Assembly: GCF_900105735.1 (NCBI RefSeq)
Contig: NZ_LT629793.1
Span: 4,278,001 to 4,342,000, forward strand
DNA from: Pseudomonas yamanorum
Lineage (GTDB): Bacteria; Pseudomonadota; Gammaproteobacteria; Pseudomonadales; Pseudomonadaceae
Direction of reading: 5' to 3'
Length of the DNA: 64,000 bases
The number at the start of each line of letters is the position of its first letter. The stretch's first letter is position 1. The translations under genes and the position numbers were made by a program. The notes beneath the pieces were generated by a model, which saw only the letters and a program-made list of their open reading frames with translations, was not told the origin of the DNA and made no database searches. This document shows, in pieces, positions 10,355 to 48,558 of the stretch.

Positions 10355-11473
10355 ATGAAGCGCATCTGGCGTTTGGCAGGTGTTGGTTTGCTGATGGTCA
10401 CCGTTGGTGCGCAAGTGATGGCCGACGAACAGCCACGCCCTGAAGGCGGTGGCCAGCATGAAAAAGGCCCGGAAGGGCATCCAGGCAATAATCAGCCTCG
10501 GCCGCAGAACAACCAGCCTCGACCGCAAAATAATCAACCGCGTCCCGAAGCCCCTCGTCCCGAGAACAATCAGCCGCGTCCGCAGAACCCGCATTTCGAA
10601 AATAATCAGCCACGGCCGCAGAATGAGCATTTTGAGCGGCCTAATGGGGGTGGCCAGTGGCAAGGTCGCCCGCAAGGCAACCAGCAGCAACCCCCGCACC
10701 CGGCACCTCAGCCGGCGAATAACCTGCCGATTCAGGGGCGCCCGGATACCGTGCGCCAGACCCAGGAACCACGTCCCGGCAACTATCAGGACATTCCGCG
10801 TCGCAACGATGGCAATCAGCATTGGCAGGCCGGCAATGGTGGCCAGGGTGGCCCCGGCCGGCCCGGCTTCAATGGCGGTGGCAATAACCATCCCAACGAT
10901 CACCGCTGGCCAGGTCGCCCCGACGGGCACGGCAATGGCTGGGGGCCCGGCCCGCAATACCGTCCGGGTTATATCGTCGACCGCTTCCCCGACCGCAATT
11001 ACCGCGTGCCGTACCGTGGCCAGGACTACTTCTTCTCGGGTGGCTACTGGTATCGCCCACAAGGCCCGCGTTATGTCGTAGTGGCGCCACCTTACGGGAT
11101 CCGCGTGCAATACCTGCCGGACTACGCGCGGGAAGTATGGGTAGGCAGTGCGCTGTTTTTCCTCGCCGCCGGAGCCTATTACACCTACGAAGAAAGCACT
11201 CAGCAGTACGTGGTGGTCGAGCCTCCGCCTGCCGCGCCAGCGCCGCAGCCAGTGCCCCAGGGCAATGGGTATGACGTGGTGGCTTACCCGGCCAACGGCC
11301 AGTCACCGGCGCAAGTCCAGCAAGATGGTTACGACTGCTATCGCTGGGCCGTGCAACAAAGTGGTTTTGACCCGAGAACCGTCACCTACGCGCCAGACCC
11401 GGCCGTGGTGCAAACCTACCGCCAGGCCCAGGGCAACTGCCTGAGCAGTCGCGGGTATCAGGTGCAGTACTAG
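10355..11473 (+). CDS. DUF6515-type secreted protein with NQPRPQ repeats
   Basis: 372 aa from the ATG at 10355, set by GAGGA five bases before. Signal peptide (about 1-24, ending VMA-DEQ), then a low-complexity Asn/Gln/Pro/Arg/Gly region (about 25-220) with repeated NNQPRPQ and PHFENNQPRPQ units, then a folded C-terminal part: a Tyr-rich PGYIVDRFPDRNYRVPYRG segment, a short hydrophobic stretch (about 263-273) and a DGYDCYRWAVQQSGFDPRTV motif seen in DUF6515 proteins. Probably periplasmic or outer-membrane associated; function unknown. It overlaps the convergent cation efflux gene by 4 nt. Confidence 0.75.
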   Translation: MKRIWRLAGVGLLMVTVGAQVMADEQPRPEGGGQHEKGPEGHPGNNQPRPQNNQPRPQNNQPRPEAPRPENNQPRPQNPHFENNQPRPQNEHFERPNGGGQWQGRPQGNQQQPPHPAPQPANNLPIQGRPDTVRQTQEPRPGNYQDIPRRNDGNQHWQAGNGGQGGPGRPGFNGGGNNHPNDHRWPGRPDGHGNGWGPGPQYRPGYIVDRFPDRNYRVPYRGQDYFFSGGYWYRPQGPRYVVVAPPYGIRVQYLPDYAREVWVGSALFFLAAGAYYTYEESTQQYVVVEPPPAAPAPQPVPQGNGYDVVAYPANGQSPAQVQQDGYDCYRWAVQQSGFDPRTVTYAPDPAVVQTYRQAQGNCLSSRGYQVQY

Positions 11474-38681: not shown

Positions 38682-41342
38682 ATGTCTGCAATCACCAAGG
38701 GGCGCAATACCGGTAGCCGGTTGGCCTTTGCCATTCACTTGGGGCTGTTCGCCTCTGCCTGCCAGGTGCAGGCCGCCGAGGCGCCGGCTGGTGCGTCGCA
38801 GCCCGCTACCTTGATGTTCGACATCGCCGCGCAACCCTTGGGCAGCGCCGTGCTGAGCTTCGCCGACCAGGCAGGCTTGCAGGTGCTGTTCGACAGCCAG
38901 CGCCTGCAAGGGTTGAGCAGCACCGCGCTCAAGGGCAGCTTCAGTGTGCACGAAGGCCTGGGCCGTTTGCTCGGTGCCGCCCCGGTGGAATACCGCTTTA
39001 CCGGCGCCCGCCAGGTCACCCTGACCCGGGTTGAACAGCCGGGCAACGCTGCGCTGGCATTGGCGACGACCACGATCACTGGCCAGCACAAGAATGACTG
39101 GGTGTACTCATCGCCGCGTTCGGTCAGTGTGGTGGGGCGCGAACAGTTGGATCGCAACCCGCCGCGCCATGCCGCCGAGATGCTGGAAGAGGCCCCTGGG
39201 GTCTACTCGGCGGTCAGTCAGCAGGACCCAGGCCTGTCGGTGAATATCCGCGGAATCCAGGACTATGGCCGGGTCAACATGTCGGTCGACGGCATGCGCC
39301 AGAATTATCAGCAGAGCGGTCACCAGCAACGTAACGGCACGCTGTATGTCGACCCTGAGTTGCTGTCCGAGGTGGTGATCGAAAAGGGCGCGACCTCCAC
39401 CATGGGCGGTGCGGGAGTGATTGGCGGGATTGCCAACTTTCGTACCGTGGAGGCGGCTGACCTGCTCAAGGACGGCAAGCAAATCGGCGGGCGCATTCGT
39501 GTCACCACGGGCCTCGGCGGGCTCAGCAACGGTACGCACTTTATCGGCAGTTCGGCGTTTGCCGTCGGCACCGATGTGTGGGACATGCTGGTGGCGGCCA
39601 GTGAGCGGCATCTGGGGGATTACGACCCCGGCACCCAGGGCAGCATCGGCGACCTGCGTACCGGCACGGCGTTCATACCGGCCAGCCAGGATCGCATCAA
39701 GAATACCCAGGTCGCCTATTCGGGCTCGGTGATGCGTTCGCGTCTGCTCAAGCTCGGTCTCAACTTGCCGGCTGATCAACGTTTGCAACTGAGCTACCTG
39801 TTGACCGAAGTCGACTACGACGACGTCAACATGATGACCGCCGAAAAACCTCAATTATGGGAAAAGCTCGGCAGCAGCAACGTCAAGGCACAGAACCTCG
39901 CGCTGGACTACAGCTACACGCCGGACAATCCGCTGATCGACTTCAAGGCCAAGCTCTACGCCGTCGACACCCGCAATGACCAGTCCACGCTGGCCCGCGG
40001 CCGCACACCCGGCTATGACGTGACCTATCAAACCGACACCTATGGTGTTCAGGCGCAGAACACCTCGACCTTTGCCTTGAGCGAGCTGTCCGTGCTCAAG
40101 GCTAACTATGGGCTGGAGTTTTTCTACGACAAGGTCCGGCCGGACTCCAATCAACCGGTGGAGGCTGGCTCTGCGGTTGAGGCTTCCGCGCTGGAAAGCA
40201 TCACCCCCAAAGGTGACCGGGCGATGGGCAGCCTGTTCGGTCGCCTGGATTACGACTACGACGACTGGCTGAACCTGAATGCCGGGCTGCGTTACGACCG
40301 CTATCGGTTGCGGGGCGAAACCGGCTTGAACACCCGCACCTTCATCATCGGCACTACCCGCCAGATCGGCGTACCCGTGGCCTATGACGTTGACCGGGAG
40401 GAGGGGCATTTCTCGCCGACCTTCGGCCTGTCGATCAAGCCGGGTGTCGACTGGCTGCAGCTGTTCGCCACGTACGGCAAGGGCTGGCGCCCTCCGGCGG
40501 TGACCGAAACCCTGGTCAGCGGCCGGCCCCATGGCGGCGGTTCGGAATCGATCCTGCCCAACCCTTACTTGAAGCCCGAGAAGTCCACGGCGTGGGAGGT
40601 CGGATTCAACGTGCTTAAGGAAGACCTGCTGTTCGCAGACGACCGTGTGGGCGTGAAAGTGTCCTACTTCAACACCCGCGTCGATGACTTCTCCTATATG
40701 GCCTTGGGGGTGCAGCCGCCCGGTTATGGCATCGCCAACATTGGCAATGCGGCGTATGTGAACAACCTGGAGACCACCCGTTTTCGCGGTCTCGAGTACC
40801 AACTGGATTACGACGCCGGGTTTGCCTATGGCCAGGTCAACTACACCCGCATGCTCGGCAGCAACAAGTTCTGCAGCAACACCGCCTGGCTCGGCGGCGT
40901 GACCAAGATCCAGAGCCGGCCAGGTAACCGTAGGCCGGTGGACGCCATGGTGCCGGACGACGTGGCCAATGCCGCCGTGGGTTGCAACGCCATCCTCGGT
41001 TCCTCCGAGCACATGCCGATGGACCGTGGCACCGCGACACTGGGCGCGCGTTTCTTCGAGCGCAAGCTGGATGTGGGTGTCCGCGCCCGCTACAGCGCCG
41101 GTTACTACGTAAAAGGCGGCGTCGGCGTGACCACCTCGCAAACCGGCGTTTACCCCGCTGACTGGAAACCCTACACCGTCTACGACCTTTACAGCAGCTA
41201 CCGCGCTACTGATCAGTTGACGCTGCGCCTGGCCATGGAAAACGTCACCGACCGCGCGTACCTGGTGCCGCTGGGCGACGTGCTGGCCTTCACCCTCGGC
41301 CGTGGGCGCACCCTGCAGGGCACCGTTGAATATCAGTTCTGA
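38682..41342 (+). CDS. hasR: TonB-dependent haem/hemophore receptor HasR
   Basis: 886 aa. Signal peptide (about 1-32), STN signalling domain (about 45-105; FDIAAQPLGSAVLSFADQAG), TonB box-like segment and plug (about 120-260; SVSVVGREQLDRNPPRHAAE), then the 22-strand barrel ending in VEYQF with C-terminal Phe for outer-membrane insertion. The motif PPAVTETLVSGRPHGGG near 602-618 is typical of HasR. It takes haem from HasA and passes it to the periplasm, signalling to HasS via the STN domain. The start at 38682 follows GAAGGGA; a second ATG 24 nt upstream is possible. Confidence 0.95.
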   Translation: MSAITKGRNTGSRLAFAIHLGLFASACQVQAAEAPAGASQPATLMFDIAAQPLGSAVLSFADQAGLQVLFDSQRLQGLSSTALKGSFSVHEGLGRLLGAAPVEYRFTGARQVTLTRVEQPGNAALALATTTITGQHKNDWVYSSPRSVSVVGREQLDRNPPRHAAEMLEEAPGVYSAVSQQDPGLSVNIRGIQDYGRVNMSVDGMRQNYQQSGHQQRNGTLYVDPELLSEVVIEKGATSTMGGAGVIGGIANFRTVEAADLLKDGKQIGGRIRVTTGLGGLSNGTHFIGSSAFAVGTDVWDMLVAASERHLGDYDPGTQGSIGDLRTGTAFIPASQDRIKNTQVAYSGSVMRSRLLKLGLNLPADQRLQLSYLLTEVDYDDVNMMTAEKPQLWEKLGSSNVKAQNLALDYSYTPDNPLIDFKAKLYAVDTRNDQSTLARGRTPGYDVTYQTDTYGVQAQNTSTFALSELSVLKANYGLEFFYDKVRPDSNQPVEAGSAVEASALESITPKGDRAMGSLFGRLDYDYDDWLNLNAGLRYDRYRLRGETGLNTRTFIIGTTRQIGVPVAYDVDREEGHFSPTFGLSIKPGVDWLQLFATYGKGWRPPAVTETLVSGRPHGGGSESILPNPYLKPEKSTAWEVGFNVLKEDLLFADDRVGVKVSYFNTRVDDFSYMALGVQPPGYGIANIGNAAYVNNLETTRFRGLEYQLDYDAGFAYGQVNYTRMLGSNKFCSNTAWLGGVTKIQSRPGNRRPVDAMVPDDVANAAVGCNAILGSSEHMPMDRGTATLGARFFERKLDVGVRARYSAGYYVKGGVGVTTSQTGVYPADWKPYTVYDLYSSYRATDQLTLRLAMENVTDRAYLVPLGDVLAFTLGRGRTLQGTVEYQF

Positions 41343-41423
41343 CCGATTTTGCCCAGTGACGGGCAAAGCCACAGCAGGCACTGGCTTGCTGCGGAGTTAC
41401 CACCCCATGACTTGGAGTTTTGC

Positions 41424-42044
41424 ATGAGCATTTCTATTTCATACAGCACGGCCTATGCCGCTAATACCGTTGCCGAGTACCTGAGCGACTGGTCGGCTTA
41501 CTTTGGCGACCTGAACCACCGTGAAGGCTCGGTCAAAGAGGGTTCGAACACTGGTGGTTTCAATCCTGGGCCGTTCGACGGTACCCAATATGGCGTGTCC
41601 AGCACGGTCAGCAATGCGGCGGTGGTCGCTGACGGCGACCTGCATTACACCCTGTTCAACCCGCCGTCGCACACGTTGTGGGGTTCGCTCGACGCCCTCA
41701 ACCTGGGCACTGTCCTGACGGGCGGCGCTGCCGGCGGTAGCTACAGCCTCGCCAACCAGGAAGTCAGCTTTACCAACCTGGGCCTTGAGAGCCTGCAGTC
41801 CGAAGGTCGTGCTGGCCAGGTGCACCAGATCGTCTACGGCCTGATGAGCGGCGACAGTTCGGCACTCGCCTCGGCGATCGATTCCCTGCTCAAGGACATC
41901 GACCCAAGCCTGTCGGTCAACTCCACCTTCGACCAACTGGCCGCAGCGGGTGTGGCGCATGCGGATTCGACGTCGTTCGCGGCGGCCGACGTGGCCCTGG
42001 TAGGTGTGCAAGACGTGCCTCAGGACTTTGCCCTGGCCGCCTGA
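41424..42044 (+). CDS. hasA: Hemophore HasA
   Basis: 206 aa secreted haem-binding protein. From the ATG at 41424, His32 (NHREGS), Tyr75 (LHYTLF) and His83 (PSHTLWG) occupy exactly the Serratia HasA ligand positions, so haem ligation by His32/Tyr75 is expected. No N-terminal signal peptide; the C-terminal tail (VALVGVQDVPQDFALAA) is the type I secretion signal recognised by HasDEF. Length is slightly above the 188 aa of Serratia. It lies 81 nt after hasR. A 13-bp hairpin follows before hasD. Confidence 0.96.
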   Translation: MSISISYSTAYAANTVAEYLSDWSAYFGDLNHREGSVKEGSNTGGFNPGPFDGTQYGVSSTVSNAAVVADGDLHYTLFNPPSHTLWGSLDALNLGTVLTGGAAGGSYSLANQEVSFTNLGLESLQSEGRAGQVHQIVYGLMSGDSSALASAIDSLLKDIDPSLSVNSTFDQLAAAGVAHADSTSFAAADVALVGVQDVPQDFALAA

Positions 42045-42063
42045 CGCCTTGGCTGCATGAAAC

Positions 42064-42095
42064 AAGCCGATGAAGGATCACGCCTTCATCGGCTT
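42064..42095 (+). terminator. 13-bp hairpin between hasA and hasD
   Basis: AAGCCGATGAAGG (42064-42076) pairs perfectly with CCTTCATCGGCTT (42083-42095) over a six-base loop, starting 20 nt after the hasA stop. There are only three Ts after it, so it probably slows transcription or protects the 3' end of hasA mRNA rather than terminating all reads. It would lower hasDEF relative to hasA. Confidence 0.6.
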
Positions 42096-42131
42096 TCGGT
42101 GTTTCCCGATTTCCCCCATGAGAATTCCCCG

Positions 42132-43874: not shown

Positions 43875-45202
43875 ACCGACCTGTGCTTGTGGCGGACAAC
43901 GGCGTGCCGCCCGTGAATAACGTACTGGCGCTGGACGATAAAAAATACGCGCGCCTGGGCTGGTGGCTGGTGCTCGGCGGGTTTGCCGGGTTTCTCGGCT
44001 GGGCCGCACTGGCGCCGTTGGACAAAGGCGTGGCGGTGTCGGGCAAGGTCATGGTCTCGGGGCACCGCAAGACGGTGCAGCACCCGGCGGGCGGGATCGT
44101 CGAGCGGATCGAAGTGCGCGATGGCGAGGTGGTGAGCGCCGGTCAGGTATTGATCCGCTTGAAGGAGACACCGTTGCGCGGGCAGATGCAGTCGTTGCGC
44201 AGCCAGTTTATTGCGTCCCAGGCCAGCGAAGCGCGCTTGAGTGCGGAGAGTGAAGGCTTGTCGGCCATCGTCTTCGCTCCCGAACTGCTGAACGATCCGG
44301 AGGCTGCCGCCACCTTGAGCCTGCAACGGCAACTGTTCAGCAGTCGCGCCCAGGCACTGGCCACGGAGCAGCAAGGCCTGCGGGAAACCATCGCCGGGGC
44401 CGAGGCGCAACTGCGCGGCACGCGGGATTCCCAGGCCAGCAAAGTGCTGCAACGCACCGCGATGAATGAACAACTGCAGGGCCTGCGGGAGCTGGCGCGG
44501 GACGGCTATATCCCGCGCAATCGGCTGCTGGAAAGTGAGCGCCTTTACGCCCAGCTCGACGGCGCGATTGCCGAGGATTTCGGCCGCATCGGCCAGTTGC
44601 AACGGCAAGTCCTCGAACTGCGCTTGCGCATCCGCCAGCTTGGCGAAGACTTCCAGAAAGACCTGCGTGGCCAACTGGCGGAAACCCGTACCCGCAGTGA
44701 CGACCTGCGCAATCGCCTGGCCTCGGCTGAGTTCGAACTGGCCAACAGCCTGGTGCGCGCGCCGGCGGCCGGCGTGGTGGTTGGGCTGGATGTGTACACA
44801 GAGGGCGGTGTGATCAAGCCCGGCCAGGCGTTGATGGATATCGTGCCCCAGGGCGAACCGTTGCTGGTGGAAGCGCGGGTGCCGGTACAGATGGTCGACA
44901 AAGTGCACCCGGGCTTGCCGGTGGAACTGCTGTTCTCGGCCTTCAACCAGAGCACCACGCCGCGCATCGCCGGGGAAGTGACGCTGGTGTCGGCCGACCG
45001 CCAGGTCGACGAGCGCACCGATGAACCGTATTACACCGTACGCGCCCAAGTCAGCGCCGCCGGCATGCGCCAGCTCGATGGCTTGCAGATTCGCCCGGGG
45101 ATGCCGGTGGAAGCCTTCGTCAAAACCGGTGAGCGCTCGATGCTCAACTACCTGTTCAAACCTTTGCTGGATCGGACTCACATGGCGTTGGTGGAAGAAT
45201 GA
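43871..45202 (+). CDS. hasE: Membrane fusion protein HasE
   Basis: 443 aa periplasmic adaptor of the HlyD/PrtE group. One N-terminal membrane helix (about 30-50; [16 protein letters not shown]), a lipoyl-like part ([21 protein letters not shown] near 57-77), a long coiled coil (about 90-280) and a beta-barrel end. It links HasD to HasF. ATG overlaps the hasD stop and its own stop overlaps the hasF ATG (ATGA), so the three are translationally coupled. Confidence 0.93.
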
Positions 45203-46527
45203 AGGCGCTGGTATTCAGCCTGTGCTGTGCCTGTAGCGGTTCGGTCCAGGCGCTGGGATTGCTTGATGCCTATGACCTGGCGCTGCGTAATGATCCGACG
45301 TTCCAGGCAGCGATCCAGGAACGCGAGGCCGGCGAGGAAAACCGCATCATCGGTCGCGCCGGACTGCTGCCGAACCTGTCCTGGAGCTACAACAACTCGC
45401 GCAACGCGTCCGAAGTCACCCAGTCGACAGCGCTGGGCAATGTCACCAGTGACCGCGATTACCGCAGCTATGCGTCGACCCTGACCTTGCAGCAACCGCT
45501 GCTCGATTACGAAGCCTATGCGCGCTATCGCCAGGGCGCGGCGCAGGCGCTGTTTGCCGATGAACGCTTTCGCGGCAAGAGCCAGGAGCTGGCGGTACGG
45601 GTGTTGAGCGCCTACAGCCAGGCGTTGCTGGCCCAGGAGCGGATCGAACTGAGCCGCGCCCAGAAACGCGCGTATGCCGAGCGCCTGCAACTCAATGAAC
45701 GGCTGCTCAAAGGCGGCGAGGGCACCCGCACCGATCTGCTGGAAACCCAGGCGCGCCTGAGCCTGGCCCAGGCCGAAGAGATCGAATCGTTGGACACCCA
45801 GGACGCTGCCTTGCGCGAACTCGAAGCGATAGTCGGTGAGCCGTTACAGATAGAAGAGCTGGCGCCTCTGACCCGACAGTTCGCCATCCCGCCGCTGGAA
45901 CCCAATCGCTTCGAAACCTGGCGGGATATGGCGATGGCCAACAACCCGGAACTCAAATCCCAGCACCACGCGCTGGACGCCGCCGAGTACGAAGTGGAGC
46001 GCAAGCGCGCAGGGCACATGCCCAAGGTCAGCCTGTACGCGAGCAGCCGCCAGACCAGTTCCGATTCGGAAAGCAGCTACAACCAAAAGTACGACACCAA
46101 CAGCGTCGGCATCCAGGTCAGCCTGCCGTTGTTCGCCGGCGGCTCGGTGTCGGCGTCAACCCGCCAGGCCGCCAATCAACTATCCCAGGCGCAATATGAA
46201 CTGGACGCGCAAACCGCCAGGACGCTGATCGAACTGCGCAAGCAATTCAACCTCAACACCAGCGGCGCGGCCAAAGTGCGGGCGTATGAAATGGCAGTCA
46301 GCTCGGCCACCGCCCTGGTGACGGCAACGAAGAAAAGCGTAACGGGTGGTGAACGGGTCAACCTCGATGTACTGGATGCCGAGCAGCAACTGTTCACGGC
46401 ACGCCGCGACCTGGCGGATGCGCGGCATGCGTATCTGCTGGCGCGGATACAGCTGAAGTATTTTGCGGGGTTGCTGAACGAGCAGGACCTGCGGGCGTTG
46501 GCGGGGTATTTCCAGCCATCGGCATGA
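45199..46527 (+). CDS. hasF: TolC-family outer-membrane protein HasF
   Basis: 442 aa. Signal peptide (about 1-18, ...SVQALG), then two TolC half repeats of coiled-coil helices and strands, with SLAQAEEIESLDTQDAALRE and NVDVLDAEQQLF-like NLDVLDAEQQLFTARRDLAD near 389-408. It is the outer-membrane channel of the HasDE export complex. The last 52 codons (from 46372) are the first copy of a 394-bp tandem triplication whose two further copies follow downstream as fragments; this first copy is the functional one because it is fused to the intact gene. Confidence 0.93.
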   Translation: MKALVFSLCCACSGSVQALGLLDAYDLALRNDPTFQAAIQEREAGEENRIIGRAGLLPNLSWSYNNSRNASEVTQSTALGNVTSDRDYRSYASTLTLQQPLLDYEAYARYRQGAAQALFADERFRGKSQELAVRVLSAYSQALLAQERIELSRAQKRAYAERLQLNERLLKGGEGTRTDLLETQARLSLAQAEEIESLDTQDAALRELEAIVGEPLQIEELAPLTRQFAIPPLEPNRFETWRDMAMANNPELKSQHHALDAAEYEVERKRAGHMPKVSLYASSRQTSSDSESSYNQKYDTNSVGIQVSLPLFAGGSVSASTRQAANQLSQAQYELDAQTARTLIELRKQFNLNTSGAAKVRAYEMAVSSATALVTATKKSVTGGERVNLDVLDAEQQLFTARRDLADARHAYLLARIQLKYFAGLLNEQDLRALAGYFQPSA

Positions 46528-46556
46528 TGGCGATATTTGCCAACACACCGATCCAT

Positions 46557-46665
46557 TGTAGGAGCTGTCGAGCCTTGGCGAGGCTGCGATGGCGGCGGGA
46601 CTGATGACATTTTTTTGCCTGACCCACCGCCATCGCGGCCTCGCCAAGGCTCGACGGCTCCCACA
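46557..46665. repeat. REPIN of the TGTCGAGCCTTGGCGAGGC family, copy 1
   Basis: Inverted pair starting TGTAGGAGCTGTCGAGCCTT and ending in its complement with GGCTCCCACA, around GGGACTGATGACATTTTTTT. Copies 2 and 3 stand at 46951 and 47345 within the tandem repeat. Confidence 0.88.
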
Positions 46666-46723
46666 TTTTGATCTTTGCAGTCCTGGGGATTTAACGCCGG
46701 GTCAGTAACACACCCGATTCCAT

Positions 46724-46921
46724 GTGGTGCGTTCAGGGGAACTGGTCAAACAGCGCGCACTTGTGCTGGATGCCGAGCAGCAACTGTTCACGGCACGCCG
46801 CGACCTGGCGGATGCGCGGCACGCGTACCTGCTGGCGCGGATACAGCTGAAGTATTTTGCGGGGTTGCTGAACGAGCAGGATCTGCGGGCGTTGGCGGGG
46901 TATTTCCAGCCGTCGGCATGA
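46724..46921 (+). pseudogene. hasF 3' fragment fused to antisense trmA fragment, copy 2
   Basis: A 65-codon frame opening with a GTG in trmA-derived sequence and continuing into the last 52 codons of hasF (LDAEQQLFTARRDLADARHA through GYFQPSA). It lacks the signal peptide and channel domains of HasF and is a by-product of duplication, not a functional protein. It is unlikely to be expressed. Confidence 0.8.
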
Positions 46922-46950
46922 TGGCGATATTTGCCAACAGACCGATCCAT

Positions 46951-47059
46951 TGTAGGAGCTGTCGAGCCTTGGCGAGGCTGCGATGGCGGCGGGACTGATG
47001 ACATTTTTCTGTCTGACCTACCGCCATCGCGGCCTCGCTAAGGCTCGACGGCTCCCACA
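46951..47059. repeat. REPIN of the TGTCGAGCCTTGGCGAGGC family, copy 2
   Basis: Same layout as the copy at 46557, within unit 2 of the tandem repeat; differs at a few bases (for example GATCCATTGTAGG preceded by AACAGACC). Confidence 0.88.
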
Positions 47060-47117
47060 TTTTGATCTGTGCAGTGCTGGGGATTTAACGCCGGGTCAGT
47101 AACACACCCGATTCCAT

Positions 47118-47315
47118 GTGGTGCGTTCAGGGGAACTGGTCAAACAGCGCGCCCTTGTGCTGGATGCCGAGCAGCAACTGTTCACGGCACGCCGCGACTT
47201 GGCGGATGCGCGGCATGCGTATCTACTGGCGCGGATACAGCTGAAGTATTTTGCGGGGTTGCTGAACGAGCAGGACCTGCGGGCGTTGGCGGGGTATTTC
47301 CAGCCGTCGGCATGA
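47118..47315 (+). pseudogene. hasF 3' fragment fused to antisense trmA fragment, copy 3
   Basis: Same structure as the fragment at 46724, with a 65-codon frame and the same hasF-derived C-terminus. Differs by a few substitutions. Not a functional gene. Confidence 0.8.
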
Positions 47316-47344
47316 TGGAGATATTTGCCAACACACCGGTCGAT

Positions 47345-47453
47345 TGTGGGAGCTGTCGAGCCTTGGCGAGGCTGCGATGGCGGCGGGACTGATGACATTT
47401 TTCTGTCTGACCTACCGCCATCGCGGCCTCGCTAAAGCTCGACGGCTCCCACA
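47345..47453. repeat. REPIN of the TGTCGAGCCTTGGCGAGGC family, copy 3
   Basis: Begins TGTGGGAGCTGTCGAGCCTT; the first arm starts with TGTGGG rather than TGTAGG, and the right arm has GCTAAAGCTCG instead of GCCAAGGCTCG. It stands beside the trmA stop. Confidence 0.88.
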
Positions 47454-47478
47454 TTTTGATCTGTGCAGTGCTGGGGAT

Positions 47479-48558
47479 TTAACGCCGGGTCAGTAACACA
47501 CCCGATTCCATGTGGTGCGTCCAAGGGAACTGGTCAAACAGCGCGCACTGGGTAATCCGGTGCGTGTCATGCAGTTGCGCAATGTTTGCCGCCAAGGTTT
47601 CCGGGTTGCAGGAAATGTAGAGGATGTTCTCGAAGCGCCGGGTCAGTTCGCAGGTGTCCGGGTCCATCCCGGCACGCGGCGGGTCGACGAACACGCTGCC
47701 AAATTCGTAGCTCTTGAGGTCGATGCCGTGCAGGCGTCGGAACGGCCGCACTTCGTTCAGGGCTTCGGTCAGTTCTTCGGCAGACAAGCGCACCAGGGTG
47801 ACGTTATCCACCGCGTTTTCATCGAGGTTGCTCAGGGCCGCATTCACCGAGGTCTTGCTGATTTCGGTGGCCAGCACCTTGCGCACGCGGGTGGCCAGGG
47901 GCAGGGTGAAGTTGCCGTTGCCGCAATACAGTTCCAGTAAGTCATCACTGCGATCGCCCAGGGCTTCGTACGCCCAGTTGAGCATCTTCTGGTTCACGGT
48001 GCCGTTGGGCTGGGTGAATGCGCCTTCGGGCTGGCGATAGCTGAATATGCGACCGCCGACGTCGAGTTTCTCGACCACGTAATCGCGGCCGATCACATCG
48101 CGCTTGCCCTTGGAGCGGCCGATGATGCTGACGTTCAGGTCCGCCGCCAGCTTGTTCGCCGCCGTATGCCAATGCTCGTCCAGCGGGCGGTGATAGCACA
48201 GGGTGATCATCGCGTCGCCGGCCAGGGTGGTGAGGAACTCCACCTGGAACAGCTTGTGGCTCAGGGCGGCGCTGGCTTGCCAGGCGGCCTTGAGTTGCGG
48301 CATCAACTGGTTGATGCGCAGGCTGGCAATCGGGAACTCTTCGATGAGGATCGGCGTGCGCTTGTCGTCCTGGGAGAACATTGCGTAGTGGCGCTGACCC
48401 TCTTCGCGCCACAGGCGGAACTCCGCCCGCAGGCGGAAGTTCTGCAACGGCGAGTCGAAAACCTGAGGCTCTGGCGCGTCGAACGGCGCCAGCAGGTCAC
48501 GCAAGCGCGTGACCTTTTCTTCCAGTTGAACGGTGTAGCTTGCGGCGTCAAAAGTCAT
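47479..48558 (-). CDS. trmA: tRNA (uracil-5-)-methyltransferase
   Basis: Makes m5U54 in tRNA T-loops using SAM; 359 aa. Motifs: [19 protein letters not shown]-binding segment near 209-224, [16 protein letters not shown] near 291-306, and the catalytic Cys in [15 protein letters not shown] near 316-330. No Fe-S TRAM domain, as in TrmA. It overlaps the permease gene stop by four bases. About 70-75 nt of its 3' end also occurs in the two upstream tandem units, there with TGA in place of the Trp codon before THHME. Confidence 0.94.

Follow-up and report, generated by a model that had tools for sequence, protein, structure and literature searches.

Two convergent gene ends repeated together with their REPIN: a 394-bp triplication between hasF and trmA in Pseudomonas yamanorum

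How can a short tandem array carry the ends of two convergent genes and leave both genes whole? This question is raised by a locus in a 64,000-nucleotide stretch of the Pseudomonas yamanorum genome (contig NZ_LT629793.1, positions 4,278,001 to 4,342,000, hereafter the window), where the 3' ends of hasF and trmA face each other across a gap that holds a REPIN, a hairpin-forming pair of inverted repetitive extragenic palindromic (REP) sequences. Tandem Repeats Finder delimits a repeat at 46368-47549 with a period of 394, 3.0 copies, 96% matches and no indels. The head-to-tail triplication is genuine, and three copies of 394 bp at 96% identity are far beyond chance expectation. The units, on the plus strand, are U1 (46368..46761), U2 (46762..47155) and U3 (47156..47549); over the 394 aligned positions they differ at 13 (U1-U2), 17 (U1-U3) and 14 (U2-U3) sites, with 22 variable columns in total. 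An earlier note on this DNA had placed the unit starts at CTGGATGCC on 46372, 46766 and 47160; this sequence is indeed present there, but the true starts are the TGTG at 46368, 46762 and 47156, not CTGG.

Repeat finding and unit alignment give the make-up of the units. Every unit comprises the final 160 nt of hasF, stop codon included, then the REPIN gap and the final 71 nt of trmA on the opposite strand; the description of two gene ends copied together with the REPIN thus stands, with the lengths of 156 and 70-75 nt corrected. The hasF part is genic in U1 (46368-46527) and orphan in U2 and U3, and the trmA part is genic in U3 (47479-47549) and orphan in U1 (46691..46761, minus strand) and U2 (47085..47155, minus strand), so that the array inserts 788 bp extra between the genes. 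In both orphan trmA tails TGA replaces a Trp codon, as had been noticed before (alignment bases, with the codon read by eye). For comparison, 398 genomes of the genus (the host's own included, drawn from a larger group, one genome per species) were searched, and apart from the own genome, hasF was matched best in G261 (96% over 428 nt). hasF (45199..46527, plus strand; the gene name is that of the earlier note) encodes a 442-aa TolC-type outer-membrane channel of a type I secretion system (TIGR01844, 397 bits), and trmA (47479..48558, minus strand) a 359-aa tRNA (uridine-54-C5)-methyltransferase (TIGR02143, 593 bits, profile positions 1-352 of 352). Both are unbroken, given their near-full profile matches and lengths equal to those of their G261 counterparts. 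A HasA-like open reading frame (ORF), recognised by eye only, lies close by in G261 (L139).

The REPIN of each unit (46557..46665 in U1, 46951..47059 in U2, 47345..47453 in U3) has further copies in the genome. As expected of a REPIN, the inverted REPs form a long hairpin in all three units (z -11.5 to -12.5): folded as DNA, 46556-46667 gives -52 kcal/mol (z -12.5), 46950-47061 gives -48.6 (z -11.5) and 47344-47455 gives -48.8 (z -11.6). BLAST against the host genome, a single contig of 7.09 Mb, returned 123 matches, both strands and self-matches counted; bar the three unit matches, all lie within query positions 173-313, and the REPIN occupies 186-294. Twelve Rfam matches at E up to 1 (11 microRNA models and isrG) were all under the gathering score and are taken for hairpin look-alikes of the REPIN. 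The units run head to tail and include flanking sequence, as in ordered tandem REPIN clusters; the REPINs themselves are intergenic, yet the repeated unit reaches 160 nt into hasF and 71 nt into trmA.

The view that triplication of a REPIN with its flanks is unusual finds no support: 12 stretches of the same genome chosen by REPIN matches contain at least five more tandem REPIN arrays (periods 173-243, 2.0-7.8 copies), and such clusters are published (PMC3116915, PMC3733652; these and the other papers are cited from excerpts). At least two of the five repeat an ORF end, and a third, C1:1060368, seems to. The arrays at C1:4501081-4501567 and C1:5897540-5898577 resemble the present one in repeating a REPIN and a neighbouring ORF end in tandem; they differ in capturing one gene end only, with periods of 243 and 183, against two ends and 394 here. 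The first of them (L131, G000:C1:4501081-4501567) has two copies and repeats the final 125 nt of an ORF that looks by eye like a FadR/GntR-type regulator, with 2 silent coding differences and 10 in the other 118 nt.

How the units were joined can be read base by base. At junction 1 (46760..46763, break 46761/46762) trmA, ending in GCACT, is joined to hasF starting at TGTGCTGG; junction 2 (47154..47157) repeats this join but for one base close by (GCCCT, then TGTG). The parental sites read TCGATGTGCTGG in hasF and GCGCACTGGG in trmA of G261, and the window junction is GCGCGCACT-TGTGCTGG. The joint is blunt, without filler, because the G261 hasF and trmA sequences abut there end to end, and with these as parents the number of shared bases at the joint is 0. 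The earlier note had instead proposed a recent duplication driven by ACTGG microhomology, with TTGTG as filler. This scenario can appeal to the exactly kept period without indels and to ACTGG in both present-day parental sites, but we regard it as very improbable: hasF reads TGTGCTGG or another form with G in G261 and most relatives, so that TTGTG needs no filler, and the units diverge by 3.3-4.3% as against 4.8-5.6% to G261. The base at stake is position 46371, which is G in 83 of the 101 loci counted and A in 16 (102 loci had a match, L039 was dropped as a double of L011, and other species doubles remain); the closest relative, G261, has G. The A in U1 that creates ACTGG in hasF is thus probably a derived silent change, and it probably misled the earlier interpretation.

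The same relative bears on the age of the array. G261 has a single unit with its REPIN present, and the three units differ from it at 19, 22 and 19 of the 394 positions. As the units differ among themselves nearly as much as from G261, the duplication is probably not recent relative to the split from this lineage, contrary to the first impression of a few base differences, unless the units were born different. Allowing 3 mismatches, the junction pattern occurs in the own genome only, twice, and 0 times in the other 397 genomes. Furthermore, in 109 relative loci (29 unnamed and 80 named, partly of the same species; 839 kb, all around hasF), the hasF tail has one match in 105, none at threshold in 4 and more than one in 0. 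The possibility that a diverged tract surrounding the array had been imported was considered and set aside: in 500-bp steps, divergence from G261 is 4.4-6.2% over 46000-48000, with no clear peak, and 1.2-11.4% in the other steps within 28000-64000. This range leaves out 39000-40500, where divergence leaps to 27-35%, and about 40.7-42.1 kb (~40694-42096), which is unaligned.

An assembly artefact as the source of the three units is unlikely, as the units bear their own substitutions, which a false repeat of one sequence would not give, and as the same junction is spanned by a second sequence. The duplication creates two fused 65-codon frames on the plus strand, at 46724..46921 (trmA antisense followed by the hasF tail) and 47118..47315, whose presence we confirmed and whose translations are identical. 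A protein search with this 65-aa frame gave five proteins (P0001-P0005) among 6 candidates. P0001, 78 aa long and located on a contig of 25,381 bases whose record gives no source, is not encoded in the window: by scripted comparison it is the window's fused frame minus 10 nt, with a single G-to-R change, a form absent from the two junction copies of the own genome. At least one further sequence therefore has the trmA/hasF junction. P0002 to P0004 are further HasF-tail-like pieces, and P0005 is a 40-aa frame under the name Pseudomonas sp. CBSPBW29, by appearance a decayed hasF tail.

On these grounds we consider it probable that the array belongs with the tandem REPIN clusters and that its unit reaches into both convergent genes by accident. 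It would have started from a single-unit ancestor with a REPIN between hasF and trmA, the state still kept in G261. Next, a single illegitimate, blunt-ended event would have linked trmA, 71 nt in from its end, with hasF, 160 nt in from its own end, so that two units, A-B, arose and both genes stayed whole; unequal homologous crossing-over between A and B would have yielded A, B/A, B; and the orphan tails and REPINs would have drifted later. The identity of the two joints is what one illegitimate event followed by homologous exchange would lead us to expect, and exchange between units, as in the expansion or shrinkage suggested by the earlier note, is plausible. We infer this order of events from units, a join and a single-unit relative that can be read directly. 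As to what triggered the first duplication, our guess is either end joining or replication-fork problems at the hairpin of the REPIN; a Ku-family protein is encoded in the genome (161.6 bits). The middle unit is consistent with the crossing-over step. With G261 as outgroup, positions 151, 258 and 308 of U2 carry derived bases also present in U3, and position 366 one also present in U1, so that U2 is possibly a mosaic, U3-like on the left and U1-like on the right, and the step from two to three units likely proceeded by unequal crossing-over with the exchange point between 308 and 366. The array most likely has no function beyond that of one REPIN at a 3' end.

Several observations weigh against parts of this reconstruction. 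Position 366 is the only clean site on the right side at which U1 equals U2; site 369 is not clean, because three bases occur there, G in U1 and U2, A in U3 and C in G261; and at sites 193 and 281, which lie in the arms of the REPIN, U2 again pairs with U1, which makes the order alternate and calls in addition for conversion between REPINs or for repeated change. In view of these misfits and of site 369 the mosaic is suggestive, not firm. The five other arrays, all reached through REPIN matches, do not prove that the REPIN caused the duplication, and 400 kb sampled at even spacing across the genome contained no tandem array of period at least 50, with or without a REPIN. As to function, Bertels and Rainey (PMC3116915) take ordered clusters as suggesting functional roles. 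Finally, the orphan hasF tails carry six polarised changes (61, 67 and 121 in U2, 44 and 70 in U3, 151 in both), and 6/6 are synonymous, which by chance has P ~0.0003-0.0019 with transition weights of 1-8, or 0.0036 with transitions only; this test is post hoc, the six events having been counted once the pattern had been seen.

Could the units instead owe their differences, or even their number, to another process? RAYTs (REP-associated tyrosine transposases) are thought to mobilise REPINs (PMC3116915), and the genome has one Y1_Tnp-family ORF (28.6 bits), yet we give very little credence to copies produced by such a transposase: the breakpoints lie ~189 and ~96 bases beyond the REPIN, inside hasF and trmA and not at the REPIN ends, and this sole Y1_Tnp (RAYT-like) match found (L140, G000:C1:5384234-5384440) is flanked by inverted REPs of a class other than that of the array, with no array-class REP head within two mismatches in L140. 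The array's REPIN class may accordingly lack a transposase of its own here. The silent-only pattern of the hasF tails would be explained by exchange with functional alleles of other strains. The units could have been different from birth, if a homologous fragment coming from a different strain was integrated through homology at one end and illegitimately at the other, or incoming alleles could have overwritten units of the array again and again; the orphan tails would then bear silent variants that had been under selection elsewhere as part of a working hasF. Unit-to-unit divergence is indeed like between-lineage divergence, every such variant base is found in hasF of some relatives, and merodiploids formed through transformation are documented in Streptococcus pneumoniae (PMC3784515). 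Even so, these two variants taken together seem unlikely to us: five silent changes separate the U2 and U3 tails, for which a single import is insufficient, G261 divergence has no clear peak at the array, and the non-synonymous change of P0001 shows that orphan tails can drift.

General purifying selection on orphan tails was examined and ruled out as a general rule by the C1:5897540 array, in whose 5 extra tails (36 nt each, compared with unit 1) 12 non-synonymous differences stand beside 6 synonymous ones; the tail of C1:4501081 has 2 synonymous and 0 non-synonymous differences, and the tails of C1:1060368 are by eye clearly changed at protein level. The G-to-R change of P0001 and the TGA in the trmA tails of U1 and U2 likewise speak against such selection. 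A more speculative proposal, which we rate as decidedly doubtful, is that gene tails are traded by REPIN arrays lying at convergent gene ends: unequal exchange or inter-strain recombination would carry units through the genic position, the spare hasF tails would stay silent-only, and the end of HasF could be rewritten from the array. If true, this passage would make REPIN arrays a route for C-terminus evolution of convergent genes. In Pseudomonas aylmerensis hasF ends in QPPPLP instead of QPSA; by eye its last bases match the local array unit, which appears to supply the last codons and the stop of hasF.

The gap between these genes is occupied by arrays elsewhere as well. In the 109 relative loci, all tandem arrays with a period of at least 60 and a score of at least 80 sit in the hasF-trmA gap and are REP-type by eye. 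They belong to four other Pseudomonas: P. aylmerensis (L041, L032), P. protegens 14B2 (L061), PH1b (L062, L038) and Fl4BN1 (L064), where L032/L041 and L038/L062 were each taken as one species, as inferred from their equal arrays. Since REP arrays occupy it in four other Pseudomonas, the convergent hasF-trmA gap is a repeated site of REP amplification. The P. aylmerensis array (L041:5314-6514, also in L032) is a different REP array, with periods of 152, 265 and 417, which fills the gap and extends a few bases into hasF. The gaps of L061, L062 and L064 hold tandem GTAGGAGC-type REPs with a period of 109-112 and 2.8-4.8 copies. The gap measures 1007-1162 nt in 37 of the 72 relative loci in which both genes were found (e.g. 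L039, L012, L013, L015), and two more at 1229 correspond to the P. aylmerensis array. That of L039 contains two ORFs which by eye look like a DUF4160/DUF2442-type small gene pair; the window and G261 are without it.

The fused frames themselves look like by-products of the duplication. That they are expressed and under selection is extremely improbable, even though their hasF part shows synonymous differences only: the scan of 46200-47700 found 0 promoter-like sites (shuffle mean 0.4), no Shine-Dalgarno sequence is seen by eye ahead of the GTG, P0001 carries a deletion and a non-synonymous change, and the 40-aa frame P0005 resembles a decayed tail by eye. A function for the frame was rejected on these grounds. 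A terminator scan likewise found 0 (shuffle mean 1.7), and for the 107-codon frame spanning the junction (47069-47389) none of 13 candidates matched at E up to 0.001 in the protein search. Elsewhere in the window, 10487-10632 is an imperfect 36-bp tandem repeat whose consensus reads NNQPRPQNPHPE in one frame.

The locus belongs to an already described kind, the tandem REPIN cluster, here with both genes intact. A literature search over open-licence papers found no paper on this hasF-trmA locus. For Pseudomonas fluorescens SBW25, Bertels and Rainey (2011, PMC3116915) report 16 ordered clusters in which REPINs recur in tandem along with flanking sequence, and they inferred a 'second mechanism' of cluster formation. 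Most large REP clusters are said to include elements that recur in tandem, each time together with adjoining DNA of variable length (PMC3733652). The present array resembles the latter in its tandem repeats of REP and neighbouring DNA, although the capture of two gene ends goes unmentioned in the excerpts of that source. It resembles the SBW25 clusters in its tandem REPINs with flanks and is unlike them in that the flanks are the coding ends of two convergent genes and the 394-bp units abut directly. Its contribution is a join that can be read and a relative with a single copy. It offers a legible case of a REPIN singlet turning into an ordered array, with a blunt junction that can be followed nucleotide by nucleotide and a middle unit in which the exchange may be recorded.
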